Shown here in pieces: positions 8,527 to 34,945 of a stretch of 64,000 nucleotides of DNA; within the stretch, counting starts at the first letter, position 1, and every line of letters starts with the position of its first letter. Where the stretch lies: positions 62,001-126,000 of the forward strand of contig NZ_JAAKEJ010000005.1 of the NCBI RefSeq assembly GCF_011039135.1, in the 5' to 3' direction. The translations under genes and the position numbers were made by a program. Under the pieces are notes generated by a model. The model did no database searches. It worked only from the letters and a program-made list of their open reading frames with translations, and was not told the DNA's origin. This stretch comes from Desulfovibrio sp. ZJ209 (GTDB lineage: Bacteria; Desulfobacterota; Desulfovibrionia; Desulfovibrionales; Desulfovibrionaceae).

Positions 8527-8769
8527 TAACGCCCCGAGGGCCCGCTGTTCCCAAAGCAGCAGGGAGTGCCTGTGCCGCTTCGGGAGCCGCGGCGCATTTG
8601 CAAAAGCGGCCGGCGTTCATGATGAGAACACCCCTCCGGGCTGCACGGCACCGGGCGGCTTTTATGGCGCGGAGTGCCCGCCCCACGCACCCACGACAGC
8701 TTGCCACGCCGCGCGCCGTGTATTAAAGTGCGCCGTCCACTTCCGACATTTCGTCCACAAGGAATCGCC

Positions 8770-10212: not shown

Positions 10213-10227
10213 TCCAGAGAGGATAGC

Positions 10228-10530
10228 ATGACACAGGAACAGCCGCGGCGCGTGAGCCGCGAAGAAGTACGCCACATGGCCGAGCTTTCCCGCCTGGCCG
10301 TGACCGAAGAGGAAGAACGCCTGTTCTCGCGCCAGTTCGGCGACATCCTGGCCCACATGGACCTGCTCTCCAGGGTGGATACGCAAGGCGTGGAGCCGCT
10401 CTACAGTCCGCTCGCCCATGCGGCCGCCACGCGCGCCGACGAAGCCCTGCGCGTGCGCACGCGCGCGGAGGTGCTCGCCAATTCGCCGGAGCCCAATACC
10501 GAATATTTCGTGGTGCCCCGCATCGTGTAG
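10228..10530 (+). CDS. gatC: Asp-tRNA(Asn)/Glu-tRNA(Gln) amidotransferase subunit GatC
   Basis: A 100-residue protein with typical GatC length and sequence, including [16 protein letters not shown] near the N-terminus and a C-terminal segment that should wrap around GatA. GatC stabilises the GatCAB complex, which converts mischarged Glu-tRNA(Gln) or Asp-tRNA(Asn) to the amide form. The start has GAGAGGAT upstream. gatA follows 49 bases downstream; gatB is not in the window and must be elsewhere. Confidence 0.92.
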
Positions 10531-10579
10531 CATCCCCCAGCCACGCAGCATCGCGGCCCCCATGCCGCAGGACATCTCC

Positions 10580-16624: not shown

Positions 16625-16882
16625 CGGCACCAGCTGAAGCGCGTCATTCCCGTTGACGGGGCCTGCCATATGTCATGGAAGTTTCGCCAGTCCTGTCGTG
16701 AACCCGGTATCCGGCATAAAAAGACAAAGCCGTATCATCCACACGCAAATGGAAAGGCAGGCCGGTGTCTCCGAACAGCCTTAAAAGAGTGGGCATATGC
16801 CTCGCATATGCCCACTCTTGGAAACGGACCCAGGATTTGCTTCTGTGGGACGTATCGGTACTGTTTGACAGTCTACAACTAG
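16625..16882 (+). pseudogene. IS481-family transposase relic (C-terminal fragment)
   Basis: The frame opens after a stop at 16622-16624 and ends at 16882. Between about 16634 and 16803 it reads like the end of an IS481-type integrase core: a degraded DNGS-like block (VDGACHMSW), then CREPGIRHKKTKPYHPHANG, then KAGRCLRTALKEWAYA. In intact IS481 transposases these correspond to the second catalytic Asp region and the catalytic Glu (NGKAERF); here that Glu reads Gly (KAGR). The N-terminal two thirds are missing and the sequence loses similarity after WAYA. It is dead and marks a rearrangement at the left edge of the accessory block. Confidence 0.75.
16785..16819. repeat. 16-base perfect palindrome at the left edge of the accessory block
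   Basis: AAGAGTGGGCATATGC and its exact reverse complement are separated by CTC. The left arm is the transposase KEWAYA codons, and the right arm is an inverted copy of them. Read on the minus strand, the stem follows the flavoenzyme stop by 60 bases and is followed by TTTTAAGG, so it can act as the terminator of the leftward operon. Confidence 0.8.
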
Positions 16883-20523: not shown

Positions 20524-21462
20524 TCATTCCACCCCAAAAAGCCGCAAATGATCCATGTGCGCGGCGGCCTCGGACACGGCGAAGCATTTCTGGGCCACGG
20601 GAAAATCCTCCCATGAGCCCCGCAACTTCCACTGCATCCTGCTGGCCGCCTCCCACGCGCTCGCCCCCGGCATCTTCGCCAGGATGGCCCGCAGCTCGTC
20701 GAGGCGCGCCTCATGATGGCGCTCCAGCTCCCTTATCCTGGCCCGGGGGTCGGTGATGATGTCCCGATGCCCGGGGAGGCAGAGCGTCACGTCCAGGCGC
20801 TCCACTTTCCGCAGGCTGGCGAGGTAATCACCAAGGGAATCTTCTACTCCCTCCCACCGGGTGATGTTGGGGGTGATGGCCGCCAGGATATGGTCCCCGC
20901 ATATCAGGATGCCCCGCCCGGGCTCGTGCAGGGCCTGGTGCCCGGGGGTATGCCCCGGGACATTCACGACACGGAAGCGGTAAAGCCCATAGGCCAGCTC
21001 ATCCCCTTCCCGCGTCCAGATGAAATCCATCACTTCCCTGGGGGCATGGGCGCGCCCTGGATGGGACGCGGCCAAAAGCTCCAAATCCCGGGCCGGAAAG
21101 CCAAGGCCCGCCAGTGCGGCCAGGCTCCTGGGCCACAGGTCCGCATCGGCGATGAAGGCGTTTATCCGCTCGCCATCGCGCCTGCCGCAGAAAAGCCGCG
21201 ACTCCGCGGTGGCCAGGCGCGGAGTGAGCCCGCAGTGATCGCTGTGCAAATGCGTGAGGAAAAAATCCAGCCTTCGCCTGTCCACGCCCAGTGCCGACAA
21301 GGCGTCAAGGAGGGCGGCCTCCGTCTCAGGCAGGTTGAAGCCATTGTCCACAAGCAGGCTCCGGCGCGGCCCGCGGACGAGCCACGCGTTGACGGCCTTG
21401 AGCGGGCTGCCCGGCAAGGGCGCCTGGATGCGGAAAAGGCACGGGGCCTCCTCGCGGATCAT
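20524..21462 (-). CDS. Metallo-beta-lactamase-fold hydrolase
   Basis: A 312-residue MBL-fold protein with the HXHXDH metal motif (THLHSDHCG), a later His (VNVPGHTPGHQ), an Asp in LICGDHILA and a final His in CLPGHRD, so a dinuclear zinc or iron site is intact. It lacks the flavodoxin or rhodanese domains of other subgroups. Members of this branch near CoA pathways often act as thioesterases or lactone hydrolases. Here it may release the final acid from CoA or open a lactone; this is inference from context. It starts 3 bases after the fixX stop, so it is translated with that gene. Confidence 0.7.
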   Translation of the reverse strand: MIREEAPCLFRIQAPLPGSPLKAVNAWLVRGPRRSLLVDNGFNLPETEAALLDALSALGVDRRRLDFFLTHLHSDHCGLTPRLATAESRLFCGRRDGERINAFIADADLWPRSLAALAGLGFPARDLELLAASHPGRAHAPREVMDFIWTREGDELAYGLYRFRVVNVPGHTPGHQALHEPGRGILICGDHILAAITPNITRWEGVEDSLGDYLASLRKVERLDVTLCLPGHRDIITDPRARIRELERHHEARLDELRAILAKMPGASAWEAASRMQWKLRGSWEDFPVAQKCFAVSEAAAHMDHLRLFGVE

Positions 21463-21465
21463 TTC

Positions 21466-21750
21466 CTAGCCCTGGCGGTATTCCACGCCCATGGTGCCCT
21501 GGGGATAGTCCCATTTCTCGAGGGCCGATCCCATGCCCAGAATCCTGCAGGCACCGCATTCCAGGCAGCCGGCGTAATCGTAGTGGAAAGCCCCGGCCTC
21601 GTCCCTCTTGTACAGGCCGGCGGGGCAGGCGATCTCCAGCAGGGCGAAGACCGCGGGGTCAGGATCGGCCTTCAGGCGGATATGGGCCTCCCCCTCGTCC
21701 ACAAAGAACTTGTTCGCCCCGAGCTTCTCATCGACATTGACCTTGCTCAT
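21466..21750 (-). CDS. fixX: Ferredoxin-like protein FixX
   Basis: A 94-residue FixX-type ferredoxin. It has the Cys pattern CPAGLYKR followed by AGCLECGACR, typical of the [4Fe-4S] protein that pairs with FixC and corresponds to the C-terminal ferredoxin domain of mitochondrial ETF-quinone oxidoreductase. The start overlaps the fixC stop (ATGA), so the two are coupled. It passes electrons between the FixC flavin and the quinone pool or an acyl-CoA reductase. Confidence 0.9.
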   Translation of the reverse strand: MSKVNVDEKLGANKFFVDEGEAHIRLKADPDPAVFALLEIACPAGLYKRDEAGAFHYDYAGCLECGACRILGMGSALEKWDYPQGTMGVEYRQG

Positions 21751-23033
21751 ATGGCCCCCATGAAGCGGATCCCGTCTTTAAGCAGATTCATCGCGCCGGC
21801 CTTCCGCGCGTGGCCCCAGAGCTTCGACCGCAGGGGGCGCCCGGGGCCGTTGACGGTGAACATCTCGCGCATCAGCCCGCTGGCCATTTCGGGGTAGGCG
21901 GTGAACAGGCGCTCATTGTTGAGCGCCTCGGGCAGCTTGCGGTAAAGCCGCAGATCCTGCATGACGAAGGACGCATCCAGGAGGCGCTCATACGCCTGCA
22001 AGGCCGCCGCGGAGTATTCGCCCTTCTCATGGCAGGCGATGACGGCCTCCGCTGCGAGCCGCCCCGAGGCTATGGCCAGATCCATGCCGCGCACCGTGTA
22101 GCCGAGGTTTATGCACAGGCCCGCCGCGTCGCCCGCGATGAGGACGCCATCGCCCACAAGCTTCGGCATCATGGCGAGGCCCCCCTCGGGCACGATATGG
22201 GCGGAGTACTCGACCAGCTTGCCACCATCCAGCAGCGGGGCCACAGCGGGATGATTTTTGAAGTTCTCCAGCATCTCCCGCACGGGCGTCTGCACGCGGG
22301 CGGCGCCATGCAGGCCGAAAACGAGGCCCAGCGACACGCTCTCCTCGTTGGTGTAGAGAAAGCCGCCCCCCAGCTGGCCGTCGGAGGGGTCGCCGGCGAA
22401 GAGCCACGCCAGGCCCTCCTTGCCCACGCAGCCAAAACGGTTGCGCATCATCTCGGGGGAGAATTCCAGCACCTCCTTCACGCCCACGGCCATGTGGCGG
22501 GGATCGGGGCGCCGGGCGAGGCCGGCGCGCTCGGCAAGGAGGGAATTGGCGCCGTCCGCGAGGATGACCACCCGCGCCCTGAGCTCGTCCTCCCCGGCCT
22601 TGATGCCGCAGACCCGGCCATCTTCCATGATGAGCTCCTCGACACGGATGCCGGGGATGAGCTGGGCGCCGGCCTCCTCTGCCTTGCCGCAGAGCCACTG
22701 GTCGAACTTGGCCCGCAGGACGGTGTAGGAGCGCTCGGCCATGGCCTCGGGGACGCCGCTGGCGTACTCCAGGGTCACCGCGTCTTTTTTCGTGAGAAAG
22801 GACAGCTTCTCATGGGTGACCACCCGCTCCAGGGGCGCCTCTTCCGCGAAGCCGGGCATCAGCTGCTCAAGGCTGTGGGCGTACAGCCGGCCGCCAGTCA
22901 TGTTCTTCGCGCCGGAGAAGTTGCCCCGCTCCACGAGCAAGGTCTCCAGGCCGGCCCGGGCCGCCGTGTAGGCGGCCGCGCAGCCGGCCACCCCGGCACC
23001 CACCACGATCAGATCAAAAATGTCGTCAGACAC
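21747..23033 (-). CDS. fixC: FixC electron-transfer flavoprotein:quinone oxidoreductase
   Basis: A 428-residue FAD protein, the usual FixC length, when started at the GTG at 23033, which has GGGAGGC 8 bases upstream. The in-frame ATG at 23111 would add 26 residues rich in Arg and Gly with no family match. The N-terminus has the dinucleotide motif DLIVVGAGVAGCAAAYTAA and the FixC motif SGAKNMTGGRLY. A second FAD motif is DGVLIAGDAAGLCINLG. FixC is membrane-associated and links the FixAB flavoprotein to the quinone pool. In other bacteria FixABCX can bifurcate electrons to ferredoxin and quinone. The gene lies in the order fixA-fixB-fixC-fixX. Confidence 0.92.
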   Translation of the reverse strand: MSDDIFDLIVVGAGVAGCAAAYTAARAGLETLLVERGNFSGAKNMTGGRLYAHSLEQLMPGFAEEAPLERVVTHEKLSFLTKKDAVTLEYASGVPEAMAERSYTVLRAKFDQWLCGKAEEAGAQLIPGIRVEELIMEDGRVCGIKAGEDELRARVVILADGANSLLAERAGLARRPDPRHMAVGVKEVLEFSPEMMRNRFGCVGKEGLAWLFAGDPSDGQLGGGFLYTNEESVSLGLVFGLHGAARVQTPVREMLENFKNHPAVAPLLDGGKLVEYSAHIVPEGGLAMMPKLVGDGVLIAGDAAGLCINLGYTVRGMDLAIASGRLAAEAVIACHEKGEYSAAALQAYERLLDASFVMQDLRLYRKLPEALNNERLFTAYPEMASGLMREMFTVNGPGRPLRSKLWGHARKAGAMNLLKDGIRFMGAI

Positions 23034-23138
23034 AATGGAGCCTCCCGCCTGAATGCCGCATGCGCGGCGCCTCATGGGCCTATGGCCGACACCGCCTCCG
23101 GGGCCGCTCACGCGGCCCCGGGACGCAACGCACCGGAA

Positions 23139-24062
23139 TTATCCCAGGGCCTTGGCCAAGGCCGGAAGAATTTTGTAGAGATCACCCACGATGCCATAAT
23201 CCGCGAACCGGAAGATGGGCGCGTTCTTGTCCTTGTTGATCACCACGATGGTTTTGGCGTCCTTGACGCCCACCATGTGCTGCACCTGGCCGGAGATGCC
23301 GGCCGCGAGGTAGAGATCCGGCTTGACCATGGCGCCGGAGACGCCAATGTAGCGCTCCCGCTCCAGCCACTGCTCCCCTTCGGCGATAGGCCGCGAGCAG
23401 GCGATCTCCGCTCCGATGGCGTCGGCCAGCTTCTGCGCGAGGGAGATATCCTCCTTCTTGGAGAAACCGCGGCCCACACCCACCAGGCGCTTCGCCTTGC
23501 CGATGTCCGCCGAGGAAGCCTGCCGCGCCTTGGACTGCCGCAGGCGGATGGGATGCTTGGGCTCGATGAACTCAAGCTTCTCCACCGCACCGTCGCCGCT
23601 CTCCATCTCCACCGCCTTGAAGGTTCCGGGCGCTACCGTGGCAATGACAAGGGGGGAGCCGGGCTTTTCGCGGGCCTGGGCCAGACCTCCGTAAGCCATG
23701 TGGCCGAAGACGCCCTCCTCTATGGAGCTCACGTCGTTGACCACGGCCGCGCCCAACTTGACGCCGAGTTTGGCGGCCATGGCCCTGCCGCGCTTGTCGG
23801 CGCGCATGAGGACGAGCGCCGCGCCGCTCCCCTTCACGAGAGCCGCCAGCGTGTCCGCGTGATCCTCAAAAATTTGCCCCGTCCGGGCCGGGGAAACGTG
23901 CAGCCGCCCCGCGCCGAGGGCCAGGGCCCTGCGCGCGGCCGCCTCGTCGGCGCCCACGTATATGGCCTCCGTCTTGGCGCCCAGGGCCGCTGCCGCGGGC
24001 ACCAGCTCATTGAACGCCTCCGGGCTGTCCGCAATCACAAACACTGTGGGAAATTCGCTCAT
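23139..24062 (-). CDS. fixB: Electron transfer flavoprotein alpha subunit FixB
   Basis: A 307-residue ETF alpha subunit. The ATG at 24062 has AAAGGTGAGG upstream, better placed than the ATG at 24071. The C-terminal FAD domain shows the hallmark VGVGRGFSKKED, YIGVSGAMVKPDLYLAAGIS and AIFRFADYGIVGD-like segments. It binds FAD and, with FixA, accepts electrons from or gives them to an acyl-CoA dehydrogenase. It follows fixA with a 117-base gap. Confidence 0.93.
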   Translation of the reverse strand: MSEFPTVFVIADSPEAFNELVPAAAALGAKTEAIYVGADEAAARRALALGAGRLHVSPARTGQIFEDHADTLAALVKGSGAALVLMRADKRGRAMAAKLGVKLGAAVVNDVSSIEEGVFGHMAYGGLAQAREKPGSPLVIATVAPGTFKAVEMESGDGAVEKLEFIEPKHPIRLRQSKARQASSADIGKAKRLVGVGRGFSKKEDISLAQKLADAIGAEIACSRPIAEGEQWLERERYIGVSGAMVKPDLYLAAGISGQVQHMVGVKDAKTIVVINKDKNAPIFRFADYGIVGDLYKILPALAKALG

Positions 24063-24179
24063 TGGCCTCACCTTTCATTTACTGGAAGCGCGCGGGCGCC
24101 TGGCCTTGCGCCAGGGCGCCAGTGCGGGCGCGCCCACGCGCGTGTTTTCTTGACAGCTTCCCGTAGTTCCCCGCACTCC

Positions 24180-24935
24180 CTAGCCCTGCAGCACTTTGCG
24201 CAGCATGGCGATGAAGGCGTCCACCTTTTCCTCGGCGTCCCCCTCGACGATTTCGTTCTTGCGCTCCGCGGCCTTGGGGGCGCAGATCGAGACAACTTCC
24301 GAAAGGGACTTCACCTCGCCGCCCTCGCGGACATTGGCCGGCTTCTTGGCCGCCGAGAGAATGGCCTTCATGGTGGGGATCTTGGGGGTATTGATGTCGC
24401 TGCTCACGCAGACAAGGGCCGGCAACGGCATTTCCAGGATCTCCTGCTCGCGCTCCAGCTCCCTCTCAACCACCAGGGCGCCATTTTCAACGGCGATGGA
24501 ACTCACGGCGTTTATGGCGGGGATATCCAGCATCTCGCCCAGCAAGAGGCCCGTCTGCTGGGCGTAGAGGTCGCCCGAGCCCTCACCGCAGATGATCAGG
24601 TCAAAGCCGATCTCCCGGCAGGCCGGAGCGAGCAGGGCGGCGGTGGCGTCGGGGAGCGCGCCCTCAAGGGCCGGCTCCATGATGATCTCGAGCTTGTGCG
24701 GCCCGCGGGACAGGATGTCCTTGCGGATCTTCGTGCTCTCCAGCCACTTGGGCGAGCCGGCGGTCAGGGCCGTCACCTGGCCGCCCTCCCCGGCCAGGTT
24801 CATGGCAGCCTCTATGGCGTTCAAGTCATACTGGCTGATCTTGGCGGCGGCCCGCGAAAGATCAATGGAGCCATCGTCCTTCACGACAATGTCCTGCTCC
24901 TCGGGAACGACTTTGCAGCAGACAATTATGTTCAT
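24180..24935 (-). CDS. fixA: Electron transfer flavoprotein beta subunit FixA
   Basis: A 251-residue ETF beta subunit. Two adjacent ATGs (24938 and 24935) follow GGAGGC; the second is chosen because the first leaves only one base between the ribosome binding site and start. The N-terminus MNIIVCCKVVPEEQD and the later LIICGEGSGDLYAQQTG match FixA/EtfB. It binds AMP or a second FAD and pairs with FixB to move electrons between an acyl-CoA dehydrogenase and FixCX. It starts 55 bases after the CaiA-like gene ends, as part of the leftward operon. Confidence 0.92.
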   Translation of the reverse strand: MNIIVCCKVVPEEQDIVVKDDGSIDLSRAAAKISQYDLNAIEAAMNLAGEGGQVTALTAGSPKWLESTKIRKDILSRGPHKLEIIMEPALEGALPDATAALLAPACREIGFDLIICGEGSGDLYAQQTGLLLGEMLDIPAINAVSSIAVENGALVVERELEREQEILEMPLPALVCVSSDINTPKIPTMKAILSAAKKPANVREGGEVKSLSEVVSICAPKAAERKNEIVEGDAEEKVDAFIAMLRKVLQG

Positions 24936-24990
24936 CATGCCTCCAGGGGAAAATCCGTCTTTTGAATATCCTTGGCCGGGTGCTTCCGGC

Positions 24991-26136
24991 TCAGTTCTCG
25001 TATTCCTTCAGGATCTGCCGCGCCGCGATGTAGACCATGATCTCGTCGGTGCCCCCGGCCATGCGGGTGATCCTGATGTCCTTCCACAGGCGCGAGATGC
25101 GCACATCCTCCGTGTAGCCCGCGCCGCCCATGACCTGCATGGCCGCATCGATGACCTCTCCGGCGGCCCGGGCGCAGTAGCGCTTGCAGAGGGCCGAGGA
25201 GAGGCGCAGGGACTGCCCGGCATCGTATTGCCAGGCCGTCTTGCAGACGAAGGCGCGCATGTTCTCGATCTTTATATCCATGTCCACGATCTTTTCCTGG
25301 ATCATCTGGAACTGGCCGATGGGCTTGCCGAACTGCTGGCGCTGGTTGGCGTAGCGAACCGCGTCCCCAAAGGCGCAACGGGCCATGCCGCAGCAATAGG
25401 AGGCGATGACGAGGCGTTCGATCTCAAAATTTTTCATGAGATGGATGAAGCCATAGCCCTCCTGGCCCACCATGTCGCTTTCCTCGAGCTCCACATTGTC
25501 AAAAAAGACTTCGCAGTTGCTGATTTGGTGCCAGCCGATCTTGTGGAGGTCCTGGATCTTCACTCCCCTGGCCTTGGGATCAACCCACCACATGGTGAAG
25601 CAGCGCCTGGGGTCCTTGGGGGCCTCGTCCCTGGCGAGCACCAGCATGTAGGGGAAGTCCCTGGCGCCGGTGATAAAGGTCTTCTGGCCATTGAGATAGA
25701 CCTTGCCGTCCCGCCGCGTGGCGGTGGTGGCCAGAAGATTGTTGTCCGACCCCGCCTGGGGCTCGGTGAAGAGCAACGAATAGGCGGGAATGCCCTTCTG
25801 GGCGCTGGCCGCCGTCTTTTCCAGCTGCTCCTTGCTGCCCCAGGTGAGCATGTTGTGCACGCAAAGGGCGTTGGTGAGCAGATAGCCGGTGCCACCCATG
25901 GCCGCTATCTCCTCAATCACAAGCATCTGGGTGAGCATGTCCGCCGGCACGCCCTCGTATTCCTCGGGAACGCCCAGGAGCGAGATGCCGTTCTCGGCCA
26001 TGGCCTCCATGAACTCGATGGGGAAGCGGTGCTCCTCCTCGCATTTGCGAAAGTAGGACTCGGGAAAATCCCTTTCCATCATCTCCCGGACGCTCGCGAG
26101 CAGCAGTTCCTGCTCTTCCGTCAAGCTGAAATCCAT
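24991..26136 (-). CDS. CaiA-like acyl-CoA dehydrogenase (probable enoyl-CoA reductase)
   Basis: A 381-residue acyl-CoA dehydrogenase. FAD-binding motifs are present (LLFTEPQAGSDNN, GQKTFITGARDFPY, RQQFGKPIGQFQMIQEK). The length and C-terminus resemble CaiA, the crotonobetainyl-CoA reductase. The usual catalytic Glu of the EGT motif is replaced: the segment reads MAGGTDEI (359-366). From memory CaiA also lacks that Glu (SGGSDEM). This suggests the enzyme works in the reducing direction with electrons from FixAB, or uses a different base. It lies 25 bases after the CoA-transferase gene and directly before fixA. Confidence 0.85.
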   Translation of the reverse strand: MDFSLTEEQELLLASVREMMERDFPESYFRKCEEEHRFPIEFMEAMAENGISLLGVPEEYEGVPADMLTQMLVIEEIAAMGGTGYLLTNALCVHNMLTWGSKEQLEKTAASAQKGIPAYSLLFTEPQAGSDNNLLATTATRRDGKVYLNGQKTFITGARDFPYMLVLARDEAPKDPRRCFTMWWVDPKARGVKIQDLHKIGWHQISNCEVFFDNVELEESDMVGQEGYGFIHLMKNFEIERLVIASYCCGMARCAFGDAVRYANQRQQFGKPIGQFQMIQEKIVDMDIKIENMRAFVCKTAWQYDAGQSLRLSSALCKRYCARAAGEVIDAAMQVMGGAGYTEDVRISRLWKDIRITRMAGGTDEIMVYIAARQILKEYEN

Positions 26137-26161: not shown

Positions 26162-27385
26162 TCAGTCAGGATACGTGACGGCGCCTTCCGCCTTCATTTT
26201 CGCCAGCTCATCCTCCCCATAGCCCAGGCCGGCCAGGATCTCCCTGGTGTCCGCGCCCAGCTCCCGCGCGATGTTGGCTTCAGGATCGCCCATGCTGTCA
26301 AAGCGCACCGGCGTGGTGGTGATGACGCGCTCATTGCCGCTCGGGTAACGGACCTTGCGCAGGCCGTCGATGGCCCAGGCCTGCTCGTCCTCCAGCACCT
26401 CCGAGGGGAGCGCGCCCTTTTCGCAGGGGATGTCGTTCTCCTCGAAAATCCGGAGCCACTCTTCAAGCGGCCTTTTGGCCATGGCCTCGCCGATGGCGGC
26501 GATGGCCTTGTGCTGCGTGCTCCGCTCCAGGATATGGCCGATCCTGTTCACGTCCTCGTCGGCCAGCAGGTCCTCGCGCCCGAAAATCCGCATCATCTTC
26601 TCAAAATACACGTCGTAGTCCGGGACGCAGATGATGATCCACCGGTCGTCGCTGGTCCTGTAGGTGTTGTTGAAGGGATTGGCCACCTCCATCCTGGACT
26701 TGGGATACCTGTTGCCATACTGGGCGCTCATGATGGGCACGGACATCGCCCAGAGAGACTGGTGGAAAAGGGAGGTGACCACCCGGTCCCCCTGGCCTGT
26801 CCTGTCACGGGCGTAAAGGGCGGCGCAAATCCCCGCCGTGAGGGTGAGCGCCGTCTGGTAGTCGCCGAAAGCGTTAGGCTCGTTGATGGGCGAGGTGCCG
26901 CGCTCATGGAAGGAACCGAGGATGCCGCCCCTGGCCACATAGCAGGTCACGTCATAGCCCGGGCGGTCTTTCTCCGCGCCGCGGTCGCCATAACCGAACA
27001 TCTGCCCCATGACGAGGCGCGGGAAGCGCTGGTGCAGGGTCTCGTAATCCAGCCCGAGCTTGTCCAGCGCCTTCTGGCGGAAGCTGGTGAGAAAGACGTC
27101 CGCTCCGGCAAGCAGCCGCATGAAGGCTTCCATCCCCGCCGGGGACTTGAGGTTCATCGCCAGGAACTTCTTGTTCAGGGAGGTCATGTCAAAGGACAGG
27201 TTCTCGTCCTCGAGCAGGGGAATGTTGAAGACCGGCGCCTGGCGACGATAGGGGTCGCCCGCGAAGGCCTCCACCTTCCACACCTCCGCGCCCCAGTCCG
27301 CCAGGACGCGCCCCGCCGCGGGGGCGGCGGCGTAGGTCGCAAGCTCCACAACTTTCACGCCGTCCAGCGGTTTTTGAGCGGACAT
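26162..27385 (-). CDS. Family III CoA-transferase (FldA/HadA- and CaiB-like)
   Basis: A 407-residue family III (formyl-CoA transferase type) CoA-transferase. The start at 27385 has GGAGG 4 bases upstream. It has the N-terminal GVKVVELATYAAAPAAGRVL motif and the catalytic Asp145 in PGYDVTCYVARGG. Several segments (SLNKKFLAMNLKS, GMEAFMRLLAGADVFLT, AQYGNRYPK, EDEQAWAIDGLRKVRYPSG) look closer to phenyllactate and 2-hydroxyacid CoA-transferases (FldA, HadA) than to CaiB; this comparison is from memory. Such enzymes move CoA from the reduced product to the incoming acid, so that each turn costs no ATP. It is the first gene of the leftward operon. Confidence 0.85.
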   Translation of the reverse strand: MSAQKPLDGVKVVELATYAAAPAAGRVLADWGAEVWKVEAFAGDPYRRQAPVFNIPLLEDENLSFDMTSLNKKFLAMNLKSPAGMEAFMRLLAGADVFLTSFRQKALDKLGLDYETLHQRFPRLVMGQMFGYGDRGAEKDRPGYDVTCYVARGGILGSFHERGTSPINEPNAFGDYQTALTLTAGICAALYARDRTGQGDRVVTSLFHQSLWAMSVPIMSAQYGNRYPKSRMEVANPFNNTYRTSDDRWIIICVPDYDVYFEKMMRIFGREDLLADEDVNRIGHILERSTQHKAIAAIGEAMAKRPLEEWLRIFEENDIPCEKGALPSEVLEDEQAWAIDGLRKVRYPSGNERVITTTPVRFDSMGDPEANIARELGADTREILAGLGYGEDELAKMKAEGAVTYPD

Positions 27386-28029
27386 ATGGCCTCCTTGATG
27401 TCAATCGCGTTATTTCACAAGACGGACGGTTCCGGCCCATGGCATGGCGTCGTTCCCATGCTTGCATGATGCTGGGCACCGCGGGGAAGGTCAAATTGAT
27501 AATGAAAAGGCCATGCAAATCGAAAAATTTGATAAGCAACGGCGCCCGGCCTTTGCCTCGGGAATTTTATCACATTATTGCGATTGCTTGCCTTGAGAAC
27601 CCTGGAGGCCGCGACCGGAGAATATTGAAAATTTTTCCACGTCCTCTTGAGAGAATTCATAAAGGGGCCCTTTAAAGCCCCTTGGCGCGCCATGAACGGG
27701 GCCGAAGGGCCGTCGCCATCATCTTTAACACTGCCCGGGGCCTGTGCAGCCGCTTTTTCCCCCTCCGGCGGGCCATGGACGGACATCCGTCAATTTTTCC
27801 CATTGAACGCGAAAAAGATTTGATGTGCGCCTCATGCCGCGGAAAAGCAGTCCACGTTGATTTATAAATTCTTTCACAACGTTATCGGAGAGAAAATATG
27901 CCCCCGACGGCGATGTTTATAAAAATTTTTCATAACGTTTGCGGCGCTATTATGAATTTGATTACGGAAAGGAAATTAATGACAAAGTTCACATGGGCTC
28001 ATCGCTTAATAAAAGGAAAGGAGGGATCC
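27386..28029. promoter_or_regulatory. Divergent control region between the two operons
   Basis: A 644-base gene-free stretch, distinctly richer in A and T than the genes around it, between the CoA-transferase (minus) and the second acyl-CoA dehydrogenase (plus). It holds an imperfect direct repeat (27861-27944). TTGATT at 27857 with a 17-base spacer to CGTTAT is a candidate plus-strand promoter, and TATTAT at 27948 a second -10. A GATAAAAT sequence on the minus strand near 27565 may serve the leftward operon. The LysR regulator at 32902-33828 is the obvious candidate to bind here. Promoter calls are weak. Confidence 0.5.
27861..27944. repeat. Imperfect direct repeat, candidate operator pair
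   Basis: The first copy (27861-27888) begins TTTATAAATTCTTTCAC and continues AACGTTATCGG. The second (27916-27944) begins TTTATAAAAATTTTTCAT and continues AACGTTTGCGG. They start 55 bases apart, about five helical turns, and lie upstream of the plus-strand operon, as expected for binding of a LysR tetramer. Confidence 0.55.
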
Positions 28030-29217
28030 ATGGGCAAGCTGTCCAAGCCGGAATTTGAGGCCTATCTGAAACAGGTGCGCGACCTGGCTGAAGGGCCGCT
28101 GGAGGAGATGCAGAAAGACATCGAGACCACCAATGTCTTTCCCCAGGAGTTTTATGACCTGGCGGTCAAGAACAATCTTTACCGGTGCTCCGTGCCGGAG
28201 GAATATGGCGGTTGGGGGCTGAGCGAGCCCGAGATCCTGCGCGTCCAGGAAGAGTTCAGCCGCGGCCCGGGCGGCATGCGCATGCACCTGCACTACGCCA
28301 TGGACCTCAACTGGCGCCCCCTGTACGACTACGGCAGCGAGGAGCTGAAGAAGGAGCTCATGCCCGGCTTCCAGGACCGCTCCGTCTTCACCTGCTGGGC
28401 CGTCACCGAGGAGAAGGGCGGCACGGGCGCCGACATCCAGGCTACGGCCGTGAAGGACGGTGACGACTACATCCTTAATGGGGAGAAGTTCCTCATCTCC
28501 CACACCGACTGCTGCAATTACGCCTACATCACGGCCGTGACCGACCCCAACGCGGACAAGGAGCACCGCCTCTCCACCTTCATGGTGCCGTGCGACACGC
28601 CCGGCTATGAGCTCACCCCCATGCCGCACATGATGGGCTGCCGCGGCGCCGGCCATACGGGCCTGAAGTTCACCAACATGCGCGTGCCGAAAAAGTACCT
28701 GCTGGGCAAGGAGGGCCAGGGCCTTGAGATCGCCATCCACTCCCTCTCCGTGTCCCGCGCGCACATCGCGGCGAGCAACCTGGGCATGGCCCAGCGGATG
28801 CTGGAGCTGAGCATCAAGCGCGCCAAGGATCGCGTCACCTTCGGCAAGCCCATCATCGAGCGCCAGGCGATCCGCATGAAGCTGGCGGACATGGCCACCC
28901 ATGTGCACGCCCTGCGCACCATGATCTATGACTTCGCGCGGGACTACGAGAAAGACCCCAAGGGCGAGTTCATTGAGGAAAAGGCGGCCATGTGCAAGCT
29001 CTTCAGCATCTGGACCACCAAGGTCGTCTCTGACGAGATGCTGGAGATATTCGGGGGCATCGGCTACTTCGAAGACTGCGAATACGGCCCCGTGGAGCGG
29101 CTCTATCGGGACACCCGCGCCATGTGGCTGGAGGAGGGCACCCCCACCGTGCAGCGCATCACCATTTCCCGGCAGAACATCAAACACAACGGCGTGACTG
29201 AATACCAGCACGACTAA
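28030..29217 (+). CDS. Acyl-CoA dehydrogenase with intact catalytic Glu
   Basis: A 395-residue acyl-CoA dehydrogenase. The ATG at 28030 follows AAAGGAGGG; the longer reading from 27898 runs through the control region and has no family match. Motifs include CWAVTEEKGGTGADIQ, DRVTFGKPIIERQAIR and FGGIGYFEDCEYGPVERLYRD. The catalytic Glu369 is present in WLEEGT, unlike in the CaiA-like paralogue. It is the first gene of the rightward operon, 15 bases before the Tat-exported TIM-barrel gene. It could oxidise or reduce an alicyclic acyl-CoA using the FixABCX chain; the direction is not decided by sequence. Confidence 0.85.
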   Translation: MGKLSKPEFEAYLKQVRDLAEGPLEEMQKDIETTNVFPQEFYDLAVKNNLYRCSVPEEYGGWGLSEPEILRVQEEFSRGPGGMRMHLHYAMDLNWRPLYDYGSEELKKELMPGFQDRSVFTCWAVTEEKGGTGADIQATAVKDGDDYILNGEKFLISHTDCCNYAYITAVTDPNADKEHRLSTFMVPCDTPGYELTPMPHMMGCRGAGHTGLKFTNMRVPKKYLLGKEGQGLEIAIHSLSVSRAHIAASNLGMAQRMLELSIKRAKDRVTFGKPIIERQAIRMKLADMATHVHALRTMIYDFARDYEKDPKGEFIEEKAAMCKLFSIWTTKVVSDEMLEIFGGIGYFEDCEYGPVERLYRDTRAMWLEEGTPTVQRITISRQNIKHNGVTEYQHD

Positions 29218-29232
29218 CCAAGGGAGTGACCA

Positions 29233-30135
29233 ATGAGCAATCGCCGCGATTTTATCAAAGGAGCTTTGGCAATGTCCGCTGTCCTGGCAAGCCCCGCCCT
29301 CGTCCGCGCCGCCGGAAAGACCTATCCCATCGGCATCGCGCCCCTGAGCCTCATTGAGCTTACCCCGCCCAACCGCGTCTCCTGCGCGGCTGAGGCCGGC
29401 TACTCAAGCATCGGCATGCGCCTTGTGCCCGCCACCCCCACAGAGGCGAAGTATGACCTCGTCTCGCCCGACTCCGCCGTGCGCAAGGCCACCGTGGCGC
29501 GCCTGAAGGAGACCGGCCTGAAGGTGCTGGACATCGAGATCATCCGCTTCACCCCCGACTTCAAGGCCGAGGCGCTCAAGCCCGTCATGGAGTCTGCGGC
29601 CGACCTTGGCGCCACCCGCGCCCTTGTGGCCGGCAATGACAAGGACCTGAACCGCACGGCCGCGCAGTTCGCGGCCCTCTGCGATGTGGCGGCGCCCTTC
29701 AACATCACCTGCGCCATCGAGTTCATGCCCTTCACCTATGTCAAATCCCTCAAGCAGGCGGCCGAGCTGGTGAAAAAGGTCAACAAGCCCAACGCCGGCA
29801 TCGTCTTTGACCTCATGCACTACCACTACTCCGGCTCGACCCTGGAGGACATCAAGAACACGCCGGCCGGCTACATCTCCTACGTCCAGATGTGCGACGG
29901 CGCGCTGAATCCGCCCACTGACAACGCCGAGCTCATCCATCACGCCCGCGGCCTCAGGGAGTCCCCCGGCAAGGGCGCCATCGACATCGTTTCCGTCATG
30001 AAGGCGCTGCCCAAGAACCTGCCCGTGTCCGTCGAGTGCATCAACGAGAAGTATGCCTACAACATGTCGCCCCTCGCCCGCGCGAAGGAGTATTTTGACG
30101 ACACCCAGAAGATTCTGGCGGCGGCAGACTACTGA
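29233..30135 (+). CDS. Tat-exported TIM-barrel protein, 3-dehydroshikimate dehydratase/epimerase-like
   Basis: A 300-residue protein with a Tat signal (NRRDFIKGALAMSAVLAS, cleavage near residue 27). The mature part is a xylose-isomerase-like TIM barrel. The likely metal ligands are Glu163 (CAIEFMPF), Asp193 (GIVFDLMH), Gln219 (YVQMCDG) and Glu268 (VSVECINE). The order Glu-Asp-Gln-Glu with spacings 30, 26 and 49 matches, as I recall, 3-dehydroshikimate dehydratases such as QuiC, which make protocatechuate; sugar-phosphate epimerases of the same superfamily usually have His at the third place. Periplasmic dehydratases of this kind are known. It lies between the acyl-CoA dehydrogenase and the MFS transporter. 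The substrate is not proven. Confidence 0.7.
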   Translation: MSNRRDFIKGALAMSAVLASPALVRAAGKTYPIGIAPLSLIELTPPNRVSCAAEAGYSSIGMRLVPATPTEAKYDLVSPDSAVRKATVARLKETGLKVLDIEIIRFTPDFKAEALKPVMESAADLGATRALVAGNDKDLNRTAAQFAALCDVAAPFNITCAIEFMPFTYVKSLKQAAELVKKVNKPNAGIVFDLMHYHYSGSTLEDIKNTPAGYISYVQMCDGALNPPTDNAELIHHARGLRESPGKGAIDIVSVMKALPKNLPVSVECINEKYAYNMSPLARAKEYFDDTQKILAAADY

Positions 30136-30206: not shown

Positions 30207-31469
30207 ATGCCACCTAAAACCTATCGCTGGATAATCTTCGCGCTCTTCGCGCTGGCGTACCTGGGCGTCTTCGCCCAGCGCATGGGCATGGCCGTCATTA
30301 GCCCCGAGCTCTCCTCGAACCTCTCCCTCTCGCCCATGCAGATGGGCACCCTTGGCTCCCTCACCTTTTACAGCTACGCGGTCTTCATCCTCTTTTCGGG
30401 CTTTCTGGCCAGCAAGTTCGGCCCCAAGCTCTGCATGGGCATTTTCTTCGGCCTCGGCGGCCTGGGCACCCTGCTCTTCGTCTCCGTCAATTCCTTCATG
30501 CTCCTCGTCTTCGGCGCCATCCTGATCGGCCTCGGCACCTCCGTCGTCGTCACCGCCGGCACCACCAGCTTCGCCAACTGGTTCAACATGAAGGAATACG
30601 GCAACGTCGTCTCCTGGTTCTTCCTCTTTGGCGGCATCGGCAACATCATCGGCGCCGCCCCCCTCTCCTGGATGGTGCAGGAGATGGGCTGGCGCACGGC
30701 ATACGGCTCCATCGCGTGCCTCATGATCGTCCTGGCCGTCCTCGCCTTCGTCATCGTCCGCCAGCCTCCGGCCGACTACTCCGTGGCCGACAACCTCCCG
30801 AGCCAGCCCAAGAACGACGAGCCCAAGGAATCCCTGCTCCAGTTGCTGGGGCAGGCCATGAAGAACATCAATTTCTGGTGCATCGCCATCTGGTACATGA
30901 CCATCGCCGCGGTGCATTACGCCTTCAACGGCATGTGGGCCGGCCTCTATTTCACCGACATCTACCATTTGTCCAAGCTTGAAATGGGCGCCATCCTCAC
31001 CATGGGCGCCGTGGGCTTCTCCATCGGCAACCCCATTGTCATGTGGATCTCCACCCACATTTTCAAATCCTTCAGGGTCGGCATGGCCATGGTGAACATC
31101 CTGGCCCTCATCGGCGCGGGGATGATCGCCTTCTGCACCGAATCCCTCCCCTACTGGTCCCTCTACCTGGTGACCCTCTTTATCGGCCTCGCGGTGGCGG
31201 CCAGCTCCATAGCCTACACCGCCACACGCTCCGTGTTTGGCGCGCGCATGGCCGGCCCCCTTGCCGGCGTGTGGTCCTTTGTGCTCTTCGGCGGCGGCGG
31301 CTGCATGCAGCTCATCATGGGTTACTTCGTCAATTCCGGCAAAGCCGCGGGCACGCCTCTGGCCGGCTCCTACCACACGGCCTTCATCATCCTCTTCATC
31401 TGCTCGCTCATCGGCACCATCGCAGGCCTTGTGCTGAAGGACGTGTACAAGGACACCGTGGCCGCATAA
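30207..31469 (+). CDS. Major facilitator superfamily transporter
   Basis: A 420-residue membrane protein with about 12 predicted helices in two halves. The loop between helices 2 and 3 has the degenerate MFS motif GFLASKFGPKLCMG, and a longer cytoplasmic loop (about residues 188-215) separates the halves. The ribosome binding site GAAAGGAG precedes the ATG. MFS members with similar features carry organic acids. Position between the exported TIM-barrel protein and the shikimate-dehydrogenase-like gene suggests uptake of the pathway substrate or exchange for its product. No binding protein is present. The exact substrate is not shown by sequence. Confidence 0.8.
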   Translation: MPPKTYRWIIFALFALAYLGVFAQRMGMAVISPELSSNLSLSPMQMGTLGSLTFYSYAVFILFSGFLASKFGPKLCMGIFFGLGGLGTLLFVSVNSFMLLVFGAILIGLGTSVVVTAGTTSFANWFNMKEYGNVVSWFFLFGGIGNIIGAAPLSWMVQEMGWRTAYGSIACLMIVLAVLAFVIVRQPPADYSVADNLPSQPKNDEPKESLLQLLGQAMKNINFWCIAIWYMTIAAVHYAFNGMWAGLYFTDIYHLSKLEMGAILTMGAVGFSIGNPIVMWISTHIFKSFRVGMAMVNILALIGAGMIAFCTESLPYWSLYLVTLFIGLAVAASSIAYTATRSVFGARMAGPLAGVWSFVLFGGGGCMQLIMGYFVNSGKAAGTPLAGSYHTAFIILFICSLIGTIAGLVLKDVYKDTVAA

Positions 31470-31488: not shown

Positions 31489-32310
31489 ATGGCAAGCTAT
31501 CCCACCAAGTTATTCGGCATCGTCGGCTACCCCCTTGGCCACAGCATGAGCCCCGGACTTCACAACTGGGGCTTCAAGGAAGTGGATTTTCCCGGCGTCT
31601 ATCTGGCCTGGTCCGAGCCCCCGGAGAAGCTCAAGGACTTTTTCCGGGCGGTGCGCCTTTTGCCCATCCTGGGCGGCAACATCACCATCCCCCACAAGGT
31701 CGAGGCCATGAAGCTGGTGGACAAGGTGAGCCAGCGGGCCGCGGCCATCGGCGCCATCAACACCTTTTATTGGAAGGGCGAGGAACTTTGGGGAGAGAAC
31801 ACGGACGTGATCGGCTTCCTCGCGCCACTGAAGGGGCGCAGCTTCAGGAAGGCCCTGCTTTTGGGGGCCGGTGGCGTCTCGCGGGCGGTCATCGCCGGTC
31901 TCCAGGATCTCGGCGTGCCCGAGATCGTCATCGCGAACCGCACCCTTGAGAAGGCCCAGGCCCTGGCCGACCACTTCCATATCAAGGCGATCCCCTGGGA
32001 CGAGCGCATGGAGCCCGATGCCGACCTCATCATTAACGCCACCTCCCAGGGCATGAAGGGCGAGCAGGTGGACAAAAGCCCCTATGAGAAAAAGTGGCTT
32101 GAAGGCCGCAAGGGCCTGGTCTATGACATCGTCTACAATCCGCTGGAGACATTGCTCCTGCGCGAGAGCAAAGCCGCCGGCTGGGAGACGGTGACCGGCC
32201 TCACCATGTTTGTGGAGCAGGCCAGGGCCGCCTTCGCCCTGTGGACCGGCGGCGTGGAGATGCCGCAGGCCTCCGCCACGGCCAAGGTCAAGGAATTGCT
32301 GGGCCTGTAG
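31489..32310 (+). CDS. Shikimate/quinate dehydrogenase-like protein
   Basis: A 273-residue protein of the AroE family with all usual substrate residues: Ser19 and Ser21 (HSMSP), Lys70 (NITIPHK), Asn91 (GAINT), Asp106 (GENTDVIGF), and the late Gln in TMFVEQARAAF. The nucleotide motif is LLGAGGVSRA, with NRTLEKA after the second strand, which is closer to the NADP-type pattern. It therefore should interconvert shikimate (or quinate) and the 3-dehydro form. It is embedded in a catabolic-looking operon, 19 bases after the transporter, and not with other aromatic biosynthesis genes, so a catabolic role is more likely than housekeeping. Confidence 0.85.
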   Translation: MASYPTKLFGIVGYPLGHSMSPGLHNWGFKEVDFPGVYLAWSEPPEKLKDFFRAVRLLPILGGNITIPHKVEAMKLVDKVSQRAAAIGAINTFYWKGEELWGENTDVIGFLAPLKGRSFRKALLLGAGGVSRAVIAGLQDLGVPEIVIANRTLEKAQALADHFHIKAIPWDERMEPDADLIINATSQGMKGEQVDKSPYEKKWLEGRKGLVYDIVYNPLETLLLRESKAAGWETVTGLTMFVEQARAAFALWTGGVEMPQASATAKVKELLGL

Positions 32311-32406
32311 ATCCTGGAGCGACGGATTGCCAGCGCATGGCGGGCGTTCCTTCCCACGCGCGCCATGCGCTGGCGCGGACCCGGTCGCCCTCGGGGCGGA
32401 GGCCCT

Positions 32407-32895
32407 GTGAACCCACTCCGCTGCAAAGTCAGCCGCAGGCCAGCGAAATTGCTGGCCGAACCTCATTTCTTCCTCTGCCCCTCCTGCGGACGACTGCTCT
32501 GGGAGCTGGGCCCGGCGGGGAAGAATCCCTCCTGCTGCGGGAGGGGGCTTAAAAAACTCTGCCCCCTCCCCGCGCCGGGCCGCTATTCCTATGAGATCCG
32601 CGGGGGCTTTGACACCAATGCCGTCCTCCTCTTCTGGGAGGGGGAGGCACCCCGGTGGGCGGGATTGCAGACCTTCACCGGCTTCTACGCCAAGGTCGCC
32701 AGTGAGGGCAAAAAGACACCCCTTGTTTTTCCCCTCGCGGACGAAGATGCCTATGTGTACTGCGGGCGCCAGCAGTGCGCCAAGTGCCTTTACGCCTGCA
32801 AAAAAGGCTGCGCGCTCTACATTTTTGAGGGGGGCGAACGCCTCTTCATCCTGACCCTCGACGAAATCGCCGAGTATTTCCGCAAAAGCCGGTGA
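32407..32895 (+). CDS. Uncharacterised protein with desulforedoxin-like iron site and Cys-rich C-terminus
   Basis: I do not recognise this 162-residue protein as a whole. The GTG at 32407 follows GGCGGAGG and is preferred over the ATG at 32365. Residues 24-44 carry C-X2-C-X15-C-C (LCPSCGRLL...SCCG), exactly the spacing of the Fe(Cys)4 site of desulforedoxin and the N-terminal domain of desulfoferrodoxin. A second cluster, Cys119, Cys124, Cys127, Cys131 and Cys135, could bind an Fe-S cluster or zinc. The middle part (60-115) has no recognised motif. It has no signal peptide. It is the last gene of the rightward operon, so it may be an electron carrier for one of the flavoenzymes. Confidence 0.65.
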   Translation: MNPLRCKVSRRPAKLLAEPHFFLCPSCGRLLWELGPAGKNPSCCGRGLKKLCPLPAPGRYSYEIRGGFDTNAVLLFWEGEAPRWAGLQTFTGFYAKVASEGKKTPLVFPLADEDAYVYCGRQQCAKCLYACKKGCALYIFEGGERLFILTLDEIAEYFRKSR

Positions 32896-32901
32896 GCGGC
32901 C

Positions 32902-33828
32902 TCACTCCCACATGCCCACCTCAAACTCGTTCATTATGAAGCTGTGAAAGGCCTTTACCTGCGGGTACTGGTAGGGGGCGTCCTTCTGCATGATCAGGTA
33001 ATAGGCGCGGCTTTTGAACAAGTGCTTCAGGGGATAGACATTCACCTTCAGCCCGTCGGCCATGTCGTCCACCACAAAGCCATCCAGGATGGCGCTGCAC
33101 ATGCCCGCGCCCACGCAGCGAAGCAGGCAGTCCTGGTGATCGATTATGTGCTTGGGCTTCAGGGCATAGCCATATTGCTGGCACTGGCTGGCCACATTCA
33201 GCCAGAGGCTGGAATTGAGGGTGGGCGCGCCCAGCTTGAGGGACTGGATGAAGGAGAGGGATACCCCCTCCTGCTCCGGCGGATGGACGGAGGGAGGGGT
33301 GATGAGGACAAGGTCGCTCGTGAAAAGCGGCACGGTCAGAAGTTCATCCGGGATGCGGCTTGAAGAGAGGATGGCCATATCCACCTTGCCCGTGCCCACC
33401 TCCTCAAAAAGCGTGCTTTCCAGGAAGCCGGAATTGAGGCGGAAGCAGACATCAGGATGCCGCGTGGAGAAGCGCTCCACCAGTTGCGGCAAGACATGGT
33501 TGTAAAAGGAGAACATGGCGCTGACCCTGAGTTCCCCGCGCACCTCCGAGGGCAGGTTCACGAGCTGCTCGCGCAACTCCTGAATGAAGCCGAAAAGCTG
33601 GGTCGCCCGGTTGAGCAACAGCTTTCCCTCCTCGGTGAGCACGCGGTTGTTTTTCGTGCCGCTGAACAATTTTACGCCAAATTCCTTCTCAAGGCTCTTG
33701 ATCTGGTAGGTCAGGGCAGACTGGTTCCTGTTCATCACTTTCATGGCGCTTGTCATGTTGCCGCATGTGGCGGTGTAGTAAAAGCCGCGCAGCCACTGGA
33801 TGAAATCTCCGCTGAATTCCGGGAACAT
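32902..33828 (-). CDS. LysR-family transcriptional regulator
   Basis: A 308-residue LysR regulator. The ATG at 33828 follows GGAGGCGG; the in-frame ATG at 33852 adds only Arg-rich residues. The N-terminal winged helix-turn-helix is clear (NRNQSALTYQIKSLEKEFGVKLF), followed by a linker helix and a periplasmic-binding-like effector domain from about residue 90. It converges on the rightward operon and ends 6 bases from the stop of the Cys-rich protein. It probably senses the acid substrate or an intermediate and acts on the divergent region at 27.4-28.0 kb, which is inferred from position. Confidence 0.88.
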   Translation of the reverse strand: MFPEFSGDFIQWLRGFYYTATCGNMTSAMKVMNRNQSALTYQIKSLEKEFGVKLFSGTKNNRVLTEEGKLLLNRATQLFGFIQELREQLVNLPSEVRGELRVSAMFSFYNHVLPQLVERFSTRHPDVCFRLNSGFLESTLFEEVGTGKVDMAILSSSRIPDELLTVPLFTSDLVLITPPSVHPPEQEGVSLSFIQSLKLGAPTLNSSLWLNVASQCQQYGYALKPKHIIDHQDCLLRCVGAGMCSAILDGFVVDDMADGLKVNVYPLKHLFKSRAYYLIMQKDAPYQYPQVKAFHSFIMNEFEVGMWE

Positions 33829-34504
33829 GGTCCGCCTCCGAAGCTGTAGCATGTATTCACGAAAAAAATTATACTGTTTCTCTTAATCTTTCAATCTTGT
33901 CCAGCCAATAATTTGCCCCACCCCCGGATTTTTCGGTGGCGCAGGGGCCCCGCTGTCACGTCCCTGAAGGCGCAGGGGCAGCCCCAGAGGAGCCGGGAGC
34001 CCGGGGTGGCCTCTGCCGCCAGCACGGGTTTTCTGATGCCACTTTTTTACAAGCCGCGGCAGGGCTGCGGTGCGGCCTCCCCTCCCACCCATCCCGCCAT
34101 AACAGTTTCCTGCAGGTTTGTTCGCCCCATGCGGCAAACCGCACTCCCTCGCCTTGCCACAGAAAGCGTGCCCACAGGCAACGCGCACTGCGCCTTTGTG
34201 CCGAGACGCTCACGTGGCCAGTGAGGATACAGGGGCGGCCATGAACGGGAAAATAGGCGCTTGGCGGTTTAAAAACCAGCGGCAGGAACCATTCATGGCA
34301 AAAGCAGCCGTCCCCTTCCCAAAAGCCGGTATGGGCGCCCCATCACGGCGCCCCCATGGGCAGCATTCCCCGCTCAGGCCAGATTCGCCAACGGCCTGAA
34401 ATCTAAAATCATTATCCCGGCTTGGGGGCTGGACTTTTCCTATTAAAAATATGAGTATTGCCCTGATGTTTTTTCAACCTGCCAACGGCTTTTGGAGGGA
34501 AGGC
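33829..34504. other. Gene-free stretch between the LysR regulator and the cupin gene
   Basis: About 675 bases. Short open frames exist on both strands, but none has a ribosome binding site, a codon pattern like the neighbours or a family motif. The last 60 bases are A/T-rich and probably hold the cupin promoter. Confidence 0.5.
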
Positions 34505-34945
34505 ATGCTTAAGCGTTTGATGATCCTGACGGTCTTTTGCGCATTCTGCGGCGGCGTTGCGTTTGCCGCCGGGGAAGAGAAGGCCCCGCAGCTCTATCCG
34601 AAGGAGCAATTAAAAACATGGGATCGCGACAAGGTCGCGGGCGGGGAGGGCGTTCTTTACGGCAAGTTCTCCCATACCCGCAACGACGCCCTGAAAGACT
34701 GGGCGATAAAGGAAATCGGCTGGATGCGCCTTGAGCCGGGCGCCTCAATCGGCATGCACAAGCATGAAGCGAATGAGGACGCCTATATCATCGTTTCAGG
34801 AGAAGGCGTGTTTACGGACACCGCGGGCAAGGAAACCCCGGTGAAGGCGGGAGACATCACCATTGCGCGGAAAGGCGATTCCCATGCGCTCAAGAATACA
34901 GGCGCAGAACCCCTTGTGTTTCTGGATGTCATAGGACAGCAATAG
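34505..34945 (+). CDS. Exported cupin-domain protein
   Basis: A 146-residue protein. The ATG at 34505 has GGAGGGAAG upstream and opens a clean signal peptide (LMILTVFCAFCGGVAFA, cleavage before AGEE); the ATG at 34451 would break this. The mature protein is a single cupin barrel with both motifs: GMHKHEANEDAYIIVSGEG (His, His, Glu) and GDITIARKGDSHALKN (His), so a metal site is complete. Function is unknown; exported single cupins may be isomerases, dioxygenases or sugar-binding proteins. It is monocistronic with its own terminator, between the catabolic cluster and the integrase relic. Confidence 0.8.
   Translation: MLKRLMILTVFCAFCGGVAFAAGEEKAPQLYPKEQLKTWDRDKVAGGEGVLYGKFSHTRNDALKDWAIKEIGWMRLEPGASIGMHKHEANEDAYIIVSGEGVFTDTAGKETPVKAGDITIARKGDSHALKNTGAEPLVFLDVIGQQ

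Follow-up and report, generated by a model that had tools for sequence, protein, structure and literature searches.

A TIM-barrel protein with a Tat-type signal and a QuiC-like active site in a ydi-like acyl-CoA operon of Desulfovibrio sp. ZJ209

Introduction

PF01261 is a family made up mostly of sugar and cyclitol isomerases and epimerases. In Desulfovibrio sp. ZJ209, a protein of this family with an apparent export signal is encoded among acyl-CoA enzymes, which raises the question of what such a barrel would do outside the cytoplasm while the rest of its pathway lies within. Gut bacteria turn quinate and shikimate into reduced ring acids, a conversion whose genes are poorly known, and we found no paper in the open-access literature assigning genes to it.

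Here, we analyze the window, a stretch of 64,000 nucleotides of contig NZ_JAAKEJ010000005.1 (positions 62,001 to 126,000), and relatives of the barrel in other genomes. An initial annotation of this DNA had described the open reading frame, a Tat-type signal, four named residues and an acyl-CoA setting, an observation that our analysis confirms as a whole.

Results

The barrel gene is an exact open reading frame at 29233-30135 on the plus strand, starting with ATG 15 bases past the stop codon of the preceding acyl-CoA dehydrogenase gene, served by an AGGGAG Shine-Dalgarno-like site, and encoding 300 aa, of which the mature protein would begin at about residue 28. The product matches PF01261 (E 1.4e-23). 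Its AF2 model, built from a 50-row alignment of the window protein and 49 members of an 80-protein list (from which L081 and L085 were left out as broken or lacking a usable start), has a pLDDT of 91.2 and presents a confident TIM barrel from about residue 30, while residues 5-27 fall below 50.

The N-terminus, MSNRRDFIKGALAMSAVLASPALVRAA, carries RRDFIK, followed by a hydrophobic stretch and an A-x-A-like end, and is predicted to form a Tat-type signal peptide of residues 1-27 (29233-29313, plus strand), with the cleavage site placed by inference. The Pfam TAT_signal model (PF10518) gives 19.8 bits (E 7e-4), just short of its 22.7-bit cut-off, and TatC is encoded in the ZJ209 genome. With twin-arginine motif, hydrophobic stretch, A-x-A site and a genomic translocase all present, the protein has the sequence marks of a Tat substrate, in support of the signal first proposed.

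An in-frame ATG stands at codon 14 (29272), inside the signal-coding region, with AAAGGAG 8 bases upstream. It may act as a second start, whose product would be without the twin arginines. Initiation at this codon, or failed export, would keep the barrel in the cytoplasm beside the rest of the pathway; the AAAGGAG site speaks for this, as does the lack of a signal on most relatives and on the close relative L019, but an AGGGAG site also serves the upstream ATG, a protein started at codon 14 would still keep a hydrophobic stub, and an RR signal of different sequence stands on the same barrel in nine of ten Sutterella genomes, so that we regard a cytoplasmic barrel as very unlikely. A pathway divided between periplasm and cytoplasm, as the initial annotation had suggested, is plausible and is matched by the Tat-tagged Sutterella relatives, although periplasmic dehydroshikimate dehydration as such is already known from Acinetobacter, according to the accessible part of PMC4213383.

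Glu163, Asp193, Gln219 and Glu268 stand where they had been placed and are conserved in 50/50, 50/50, 50/50 and 49/50 rows of the alignment, respectively. Their spacing of 30/26/49, compared with 31/26/48 in QuiC1/QsuB, bears out the order and approximate spacing that had been likened to 3-dehydroshikimate dehydratases. The active site of QuiC1/QsuB, in the accessible part of PMC7442255, from which the QuiC1 numbering is also taken, comprises Arg64, Leu97, Glu134, Leu136, Asp165, His168, Gln191, Ser206, Arg210 and Glu239. Eight of these ten residues are identical in the barrel (R64 to R105, L97 to L131, E134 to E163, D165 to D193, H168 to H196, Q191 to Q219, R210 to R242 and E239 to E268), including equivalents of all metal ligands (E134, D165, Q191, E239) as well as of H168, R64 and R210. 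The correspondence was drawn from profile alignments, with the 5hmq chain index two higher, and the pairing of R64 with R105 goes through a QuiC homologue and assumes no gap. The two pocket residues that change, Leu136 to Met165 and Ser206 to Ala238, do so throughout the subfamily (M165 in 50/50 rows, A238 in 49/50). Because Arg63, Glu102 and Asp136 are invariant in the barrel subfamily and not in QuiC1, the pocket differs from that of QuiC1.

Among solved structures, the barrel profile ranked Lmo2234 (2g0w, titled a putative sugar isomerase) first with E 6e-27, followed by IolI (E 7e-18) and QuiC1 (5hmq, E 2e-16), with AsbF following at E 7e-4; 3-keto-D-glucoside 4-epimerase (6wn6) was also matched, at E 3e-4. 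Comparison of the predicted fold gave Z scores of 31.4, 30.9 and 28.7 for Lmo2234, IolI and QuiC1, while the remaining PF01261 folds reached at most 26.6 (UlaE 25.6; tagatose/psicose epimerases about 25). Profile-profile comparison with a QuiC N-domain family, assembled from ten QuiC-type proteins of fetched loci, gave a probability of 99.5 and E 5e-23, a value that, with the PF01261 match, shows the QuiC-like match not to be due to chance. The QuiC equivalog NF042435, on the other hand, gives 31 bits against a cut-off of 1200. Being single-domain, with this score, two changed pocket residues and a QuiC-type gene near 7 of 80 relatives, the barrel is, on these sequence grounds, no QuiC1 orthologue.

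The structural comparison with QuiC that had been proposed for this protein therefore found the likeness it looked for, with sugar-phosphate epimerases matching no better, and a plain sugar-phosphate epimerase is ruled out by the third ligand, Gln and not His, together with the lower fold scores. IolI and Lmo2234 nevertheless outscore QuiC1; the two are tied, and in the predicted model IolI fits the barrel about equally by fold. The dehydratase-like active site stands insofar as it is nearer to QuiC-type 3-dehydroshikimate dehydratases than to sugar(-phosphate) epimerases, in eight of ten residues and the Gln ligand, and is qualified by the two residues that differ.

The barrel could instead be a cyclitol or sugar isomerase or epimerase, IolI-like or of the 3-keto-glycoside type, lying in the operon by chance or for some other substrate. 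The IolI and 6wn6 matches point that way, as does the make-up of PF01261 as a family; the third ligand points elsewhere, since the barrel, QuiC1 and Lmo2234 have Gln where IolI and the L-ribulose 3-epimerase 3vyl have His, as do Arg105 and Arg239, common to QuiC-type proteins and absent from Lmo2234, and the hydroaromatic neighbors found across many lineages. We consider such an isomerase unlikely. Gln as third ligand is no proof of a dehydratase, since AsbF of Bacillus, a proven dehydratase, uses His at this position (accessible part of PMC9324987).

Pfam and NCBIfam matches of the neighboring genes show that the acyl-CoA setting had been correctly recognized. The plus-strand operon begins with the core acyl-CoA dehydrogenase gene (27979-29217) and continues, after the barrel, with an MFS transporter (30207-31469; PF07690, E 2.4e-36) and a second shikimate dehydrogenase of AroE type (31489-32310; TIGR00507, 230 bits, over cut-off), which form a cassette with it. 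On the minus strand lie a family III CoA-transferase (26162-27385; PF02515, E 2e-85), a YdiO-type acyl-CoA dehydrogenase (24991-26136; PRK12341, 645.7 bits, cut-off 537), ETF beta/FixA-type (24180-24938) and ETF alpha/FixB-type (23139-24071) subunits recognized by Pfam/NCBIfam, a FixC/YdiS-type flavoprotein resembling ETF:quinone oxidoreductase (21747-23111; PRK10015, 593.7 bits, cut-off 466), and a FixX/YdiT-type ferredoxin of about 94 aa (approximately 21466-21750), an open frame 70% identical to the ferredoxin ORF of L114. These are followed on the same strand by a metallo-beta-lactamase-fold hydrolase, possibly a thioesterase (20524-21462; PF00753), a FadK-like acyl-CoA ligase (18913-20490) that stays below cut-off with both PRK06087 (530.7 bits, cut-off 736) and a cyclohexanecarboxylate-CoA ligase model (322.7 bits, cut-off 792), and a BaiCD-like flavoenzyme of the OYE/2,4-dienoyl-CoA reductase type (16879-18804; PF00724; BaiCD model, 517.9 bits, cut-off 825). 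A YdiO over its curated cut-off, together with Etf and FixC-type genes, makes this a ydi-type operon; the YdiO model was passed in 3 of 288 genomes of the family and, among 14 control genomes, by E. coli only.

Downstream of the cassette is a Cys-rich ORF of 176 aa (32365-32895), 43% identical to an ORF directly after the acyl-CoA dehydrogenase gene in the congener G038. It is followed by a LysR-type regulator identified by Pfam (32902-33852, minus strand), 55% identical to the LysR near the core in G038 and G077, two genomes of the same genus; LysR genes also occur near the barrel in L009 and L019. Beyond the LysR gene, 34451-34945 encodes a cupin-like protein that appears to carry a signal peptide. 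A horizontal origin of the cassette was not borne out by base composition, the GC3 of 86.5-90.3% showing no difference from the 81.8-88.1% of the core, and a scan for promoters and terminators returned about as many sites as in shuffled sequences.

The core is shared with G038 and G077 (YdiO 85%, CoA-transferase 77%, acyl-CoA dehydrogenase 86%), as is the metallo-beta-lactamase-fold hydrolase. The barrel was not found in either genome, an OYE-type enzyme gave no match there at E<=1e-100, the cassette MFS was not found at their core loci, and each has one AroE compared with two in ZJ209. In ZJ209, barrel, MFS and shikimate dehydrogenase genes lie between the acyl-CoA dehydrogenase gene and the Cys-rich ORF, whose counterparts are adjacent in G038. 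Since barrel, MFS, second shikimate dehydrogenase and OYE are missing where the core is constant, these four genes vary together, and the operon, as annotated, combines a CoA/ETF core like that of the E. coli ydi operon with a co-varying module. The other AroE copy (C4:86851) adjoins a type II dehydroquinase gene elsewhere in the genome, the one dehydroquinase of ZJ209, with no type I enzyme. The barrel may serve as a dehydroquinase substitute for AroD, but, as the type II enzyme stands beside the housekeeping aroE, there is no dehydroquinase gap to fill.

The barrel is present in 3 of 288 genomes of the family, ZJ209 included, in 2 of 395 genomes of the phylum and in 197 plasmid records. A scan of genome_contigs with the single protein found no relatives; with a four-sequence alignment, it returned 209 stretches and 144 relatives, 80 of which were kept. 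Within 6 kb of the barrel in these 80 loci, which are dominated by Burkholderiaceae, so that the counts do not represent independent events, there are genes for an FAD oxidoreductase (65), NIPSNAP (51), Gfo/Idh (30), shikimate dehydrogenase (12) and QuiC-type proteins (7). The FAD enzyme exceeds the PRK06134 cut-off and reaches 526.7 bits, with a cut-off of 900, in the model of ChcC2, a 4-oxocyclohexene-carboxylate dehydrogenase. The same gene grouping occurs on annotated plasmids of Paracoccus, Marinovum, Rhizobium, Paraburkholderia and Klebsiella. Judged from these annotations, the gene context of the barrel is hydroaromatic.

A true 3-dehydroshikimate dehydratase, making periplasmic protocatechuate while the acyl-CoA operon serves either another branch or the protocatechuate itself, would agree with the QuiC1-like site, with the shikimate dehydrogenase gene in the cassette and with the periplasmic QuiC precedent of Acinetobacter (PMC4213383, as far as its accessible part goes). 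It would have to accommodate the two changed pocket residues, the QuiC-type genes near barrel relatives in 7 of 80 loci, which suggest a non-redundant task, and a protocatechuate-making step from which the hydroaromatic reduction suggested by the operon could not proceed; we therefore think it possible but doubtful.

A Tat-type extension is found on 5 of the 80 proteins, all from Sutterellaceae, and the soil relatives are untagged. A motif count (RR-x-hydrophobic within the first 20 residues) had flagged 25; in 20 of these, the RR belongs to the barrel's own N-terminus (MSRRKLSL..., NRRPLSL...), and they were set aside by eye. L019, from Desulfovibrio sp. OttesenSCG-928-C06, is likewise without a signal; its neighbors are genes for a LysR regulator, an MFS transporter, an aldo-keto reductase and a tautomerase. 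A tree groups the window protein, L019 and Sutterella with support of 93/93, below star level, the row of the window being long and of odd composition.

Among 67 Sutterellaceae genomes, 11 carry the barrel at E<=1e-30, and leaving out one 30% relative gives the set of ten Sutterella genomes, the nearest relatives, nine of which have the RR signal. In the tenth (G730; L140 8320-8904 and beyond), the signal is shortened and an internal TGA stop is present, and the gene is apparently decaying. L018 contains tandem barrels (8613-9491 and 9863-10804), only one of which has a Tat signal, and an additional, untagged copy occurs in G666.

In five of ten loci (L021, L023, L137, L138 and L139), the barrel is accompanied by two-component regulators and by two flavocytochrome-type proteins that bear a Tat or other signal, with a small CxxCH protein beside it in L137-L139; the flavoproteins are more distant in L140, and none is in view in L018, L020, L022 and L136. 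One flavoprotein scores 337 bits with flavocytochrome c (over cut-off), the other 219 (under), and urocanate reductase is also matched; by sequence, these five modules look respiratory. A YdiO-type acyl-CoA dehydrogenase was found in none of the five Sutterella genomes with a tagged barrel, even at E<=1e-3, and a shikimate dehydrogenase domain in two of the five, some of which are incomplete MAGs. On these counts, neither enzyme is needed in Sutterella, and acyl-CoA chemistry as a general requirement of the barrel is ruled out.

Discussion

With moderate confidence, we regard the barrel as an exported, metal-dependent, QuiC-like lyase or isomerase acting in the periplasm on a hydroaromatic keto acid, either 3-dehydroshikimate or a compound close to it. 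It is favored by the eight shared active-site residues, the Gln ligand, the fold scores with QuiC1 and Lmo2234, the hydroaromatic gene context, the genes that vary with the barrel and the Tat signals in nine of ten Sutterella genomes. While a hydroaromatic keto acid is the probable substrate, it need not be 3-dehydroshikimate: as two pocket residues differ and a QuiC-type gene lies near 7 of 80 relatives, another hydroaromatic compound has roughly the same chance of being the substrate. The pocket unlike that of QuiC1 (M165, A238), the low QuiC equivalog score, the closeness of IolI in fold, the untagged L019 and second L018 copy, and the Sutterella genomes that have a tagged barrel but no YdiO-type acyl-CoA dehydrogenase and mostly no shikimate dehydrogenase weigh against this lyase or isomerase.

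The pathway below is given as we infer it, in its export, metal, substrate, individual reactions and direction of flow. With Glu163, Asp193, Gln219 and Glu268 as its ligands, a divalent metal would polarize the ring ketone, while His196, Arg105 and Arg242 would position the carboxylate and move a proton, leading to loss of water or a double-bond shift. The product, or unused shikimate-type substrate, would be imported by the MFS transporter, its redox state adjusted by the second shikimate dehydrogenase, and the acid joined to CoA. Reduction of the CoA ester, as an electron sink, would then fall to the OYE-type reductase and to the acyl-CoA dehydrogenases, which EtfAB/FixCX would supply. In our best reading, the overall role would be to prepare plant ring acids for anaerobic reduction.

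A broader and more speculative proposal, rather unlikely as it stands, is that gut anaerobes export the QuiC-like barrel and thereby make plant hydroaromatic acids of the quinate/shikimate family available as anaerobic electron acceptors. In Sutterella, the barrel would then work in an entirely periplasmic module, alongside a two-component system, a small c-type cytochrome and reductases of the Tat flavocytochrome type, and in ZJ209 the first step would occur outside, after which the ring would be reduced as a CoA ester by the ydi-like, ETF-linked operon. One subfamily would thus serve three redox settings, namely aerobic desaturation in soil bacteria, periplasmic respiration and acyl-CoA reduction. 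If our reading holds, it would provide a testable gene set for the conversion of quinate and shikimate by gut bacteria, point to a possible substrate of ydi-like operons and define a subfamily of exported PF01261 enzymes.

Among known systems, the QuiA-QuiB-QuiC pathway of Acinetobacter also dehydrates dehydroshikimate outside the cytoplasm and then imports the product; this quinate pathway is aerobic, and the accessible part of PMC4213383 describes no CoA/ETF operon, the likeness being drawn at the level of the pathways. IolI (PDB 1i60) has in common with the barrel its fold, the E/D/E ligands and the second Arg of the PGQG loop, and differs in its third ligand and in lacking an R239 equivalent. 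Lmo2234 of Listeria is the best match by both sequence and fold, with 27% identity and R63, E102, Q219, D222 and R242 in common; it is without equivalents of R105 and R239 and, judged from the aligned range, without a Tat signal. In Listeria, which has a dehydroshikimate dehydratase named QuiC2, lmo2234-2236 code for a barrel protein, an OYE-type enzyme and a shikimate dehydrogenase; the open-access literature yielded no paper on the barrel subfamily or Lmo2234, nor one naming two of lmo2234/2235/2236.

The two-domain QuiC1/QsuB (PDB 5hmq) superimposes on the barrel over 256 residues with an rmsd of 2.5 and shares the E/D/Q/E site at near-equal spacing, along with equivalents of H168, R64, R210 and L97; the two are 18% identical, and the barrel lacks the HPPD-like C-terminal domain and bears a Tat signal. 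The E. coli ydi operon shares with that of ZJ209 the YdiO-type dehydrogenase, Etf/FixC/FixX, acyl-CoA ligase, MFS and shikimate dehydrogenase, whereas the ZJ209 operon is distinguished by a family III CoA-transferase, a second acyl-CoA dehydrogenase, the OYE and the Tat-tagged barrel, which occupies the place that, in the E. coli gene order, belongs to AroD.
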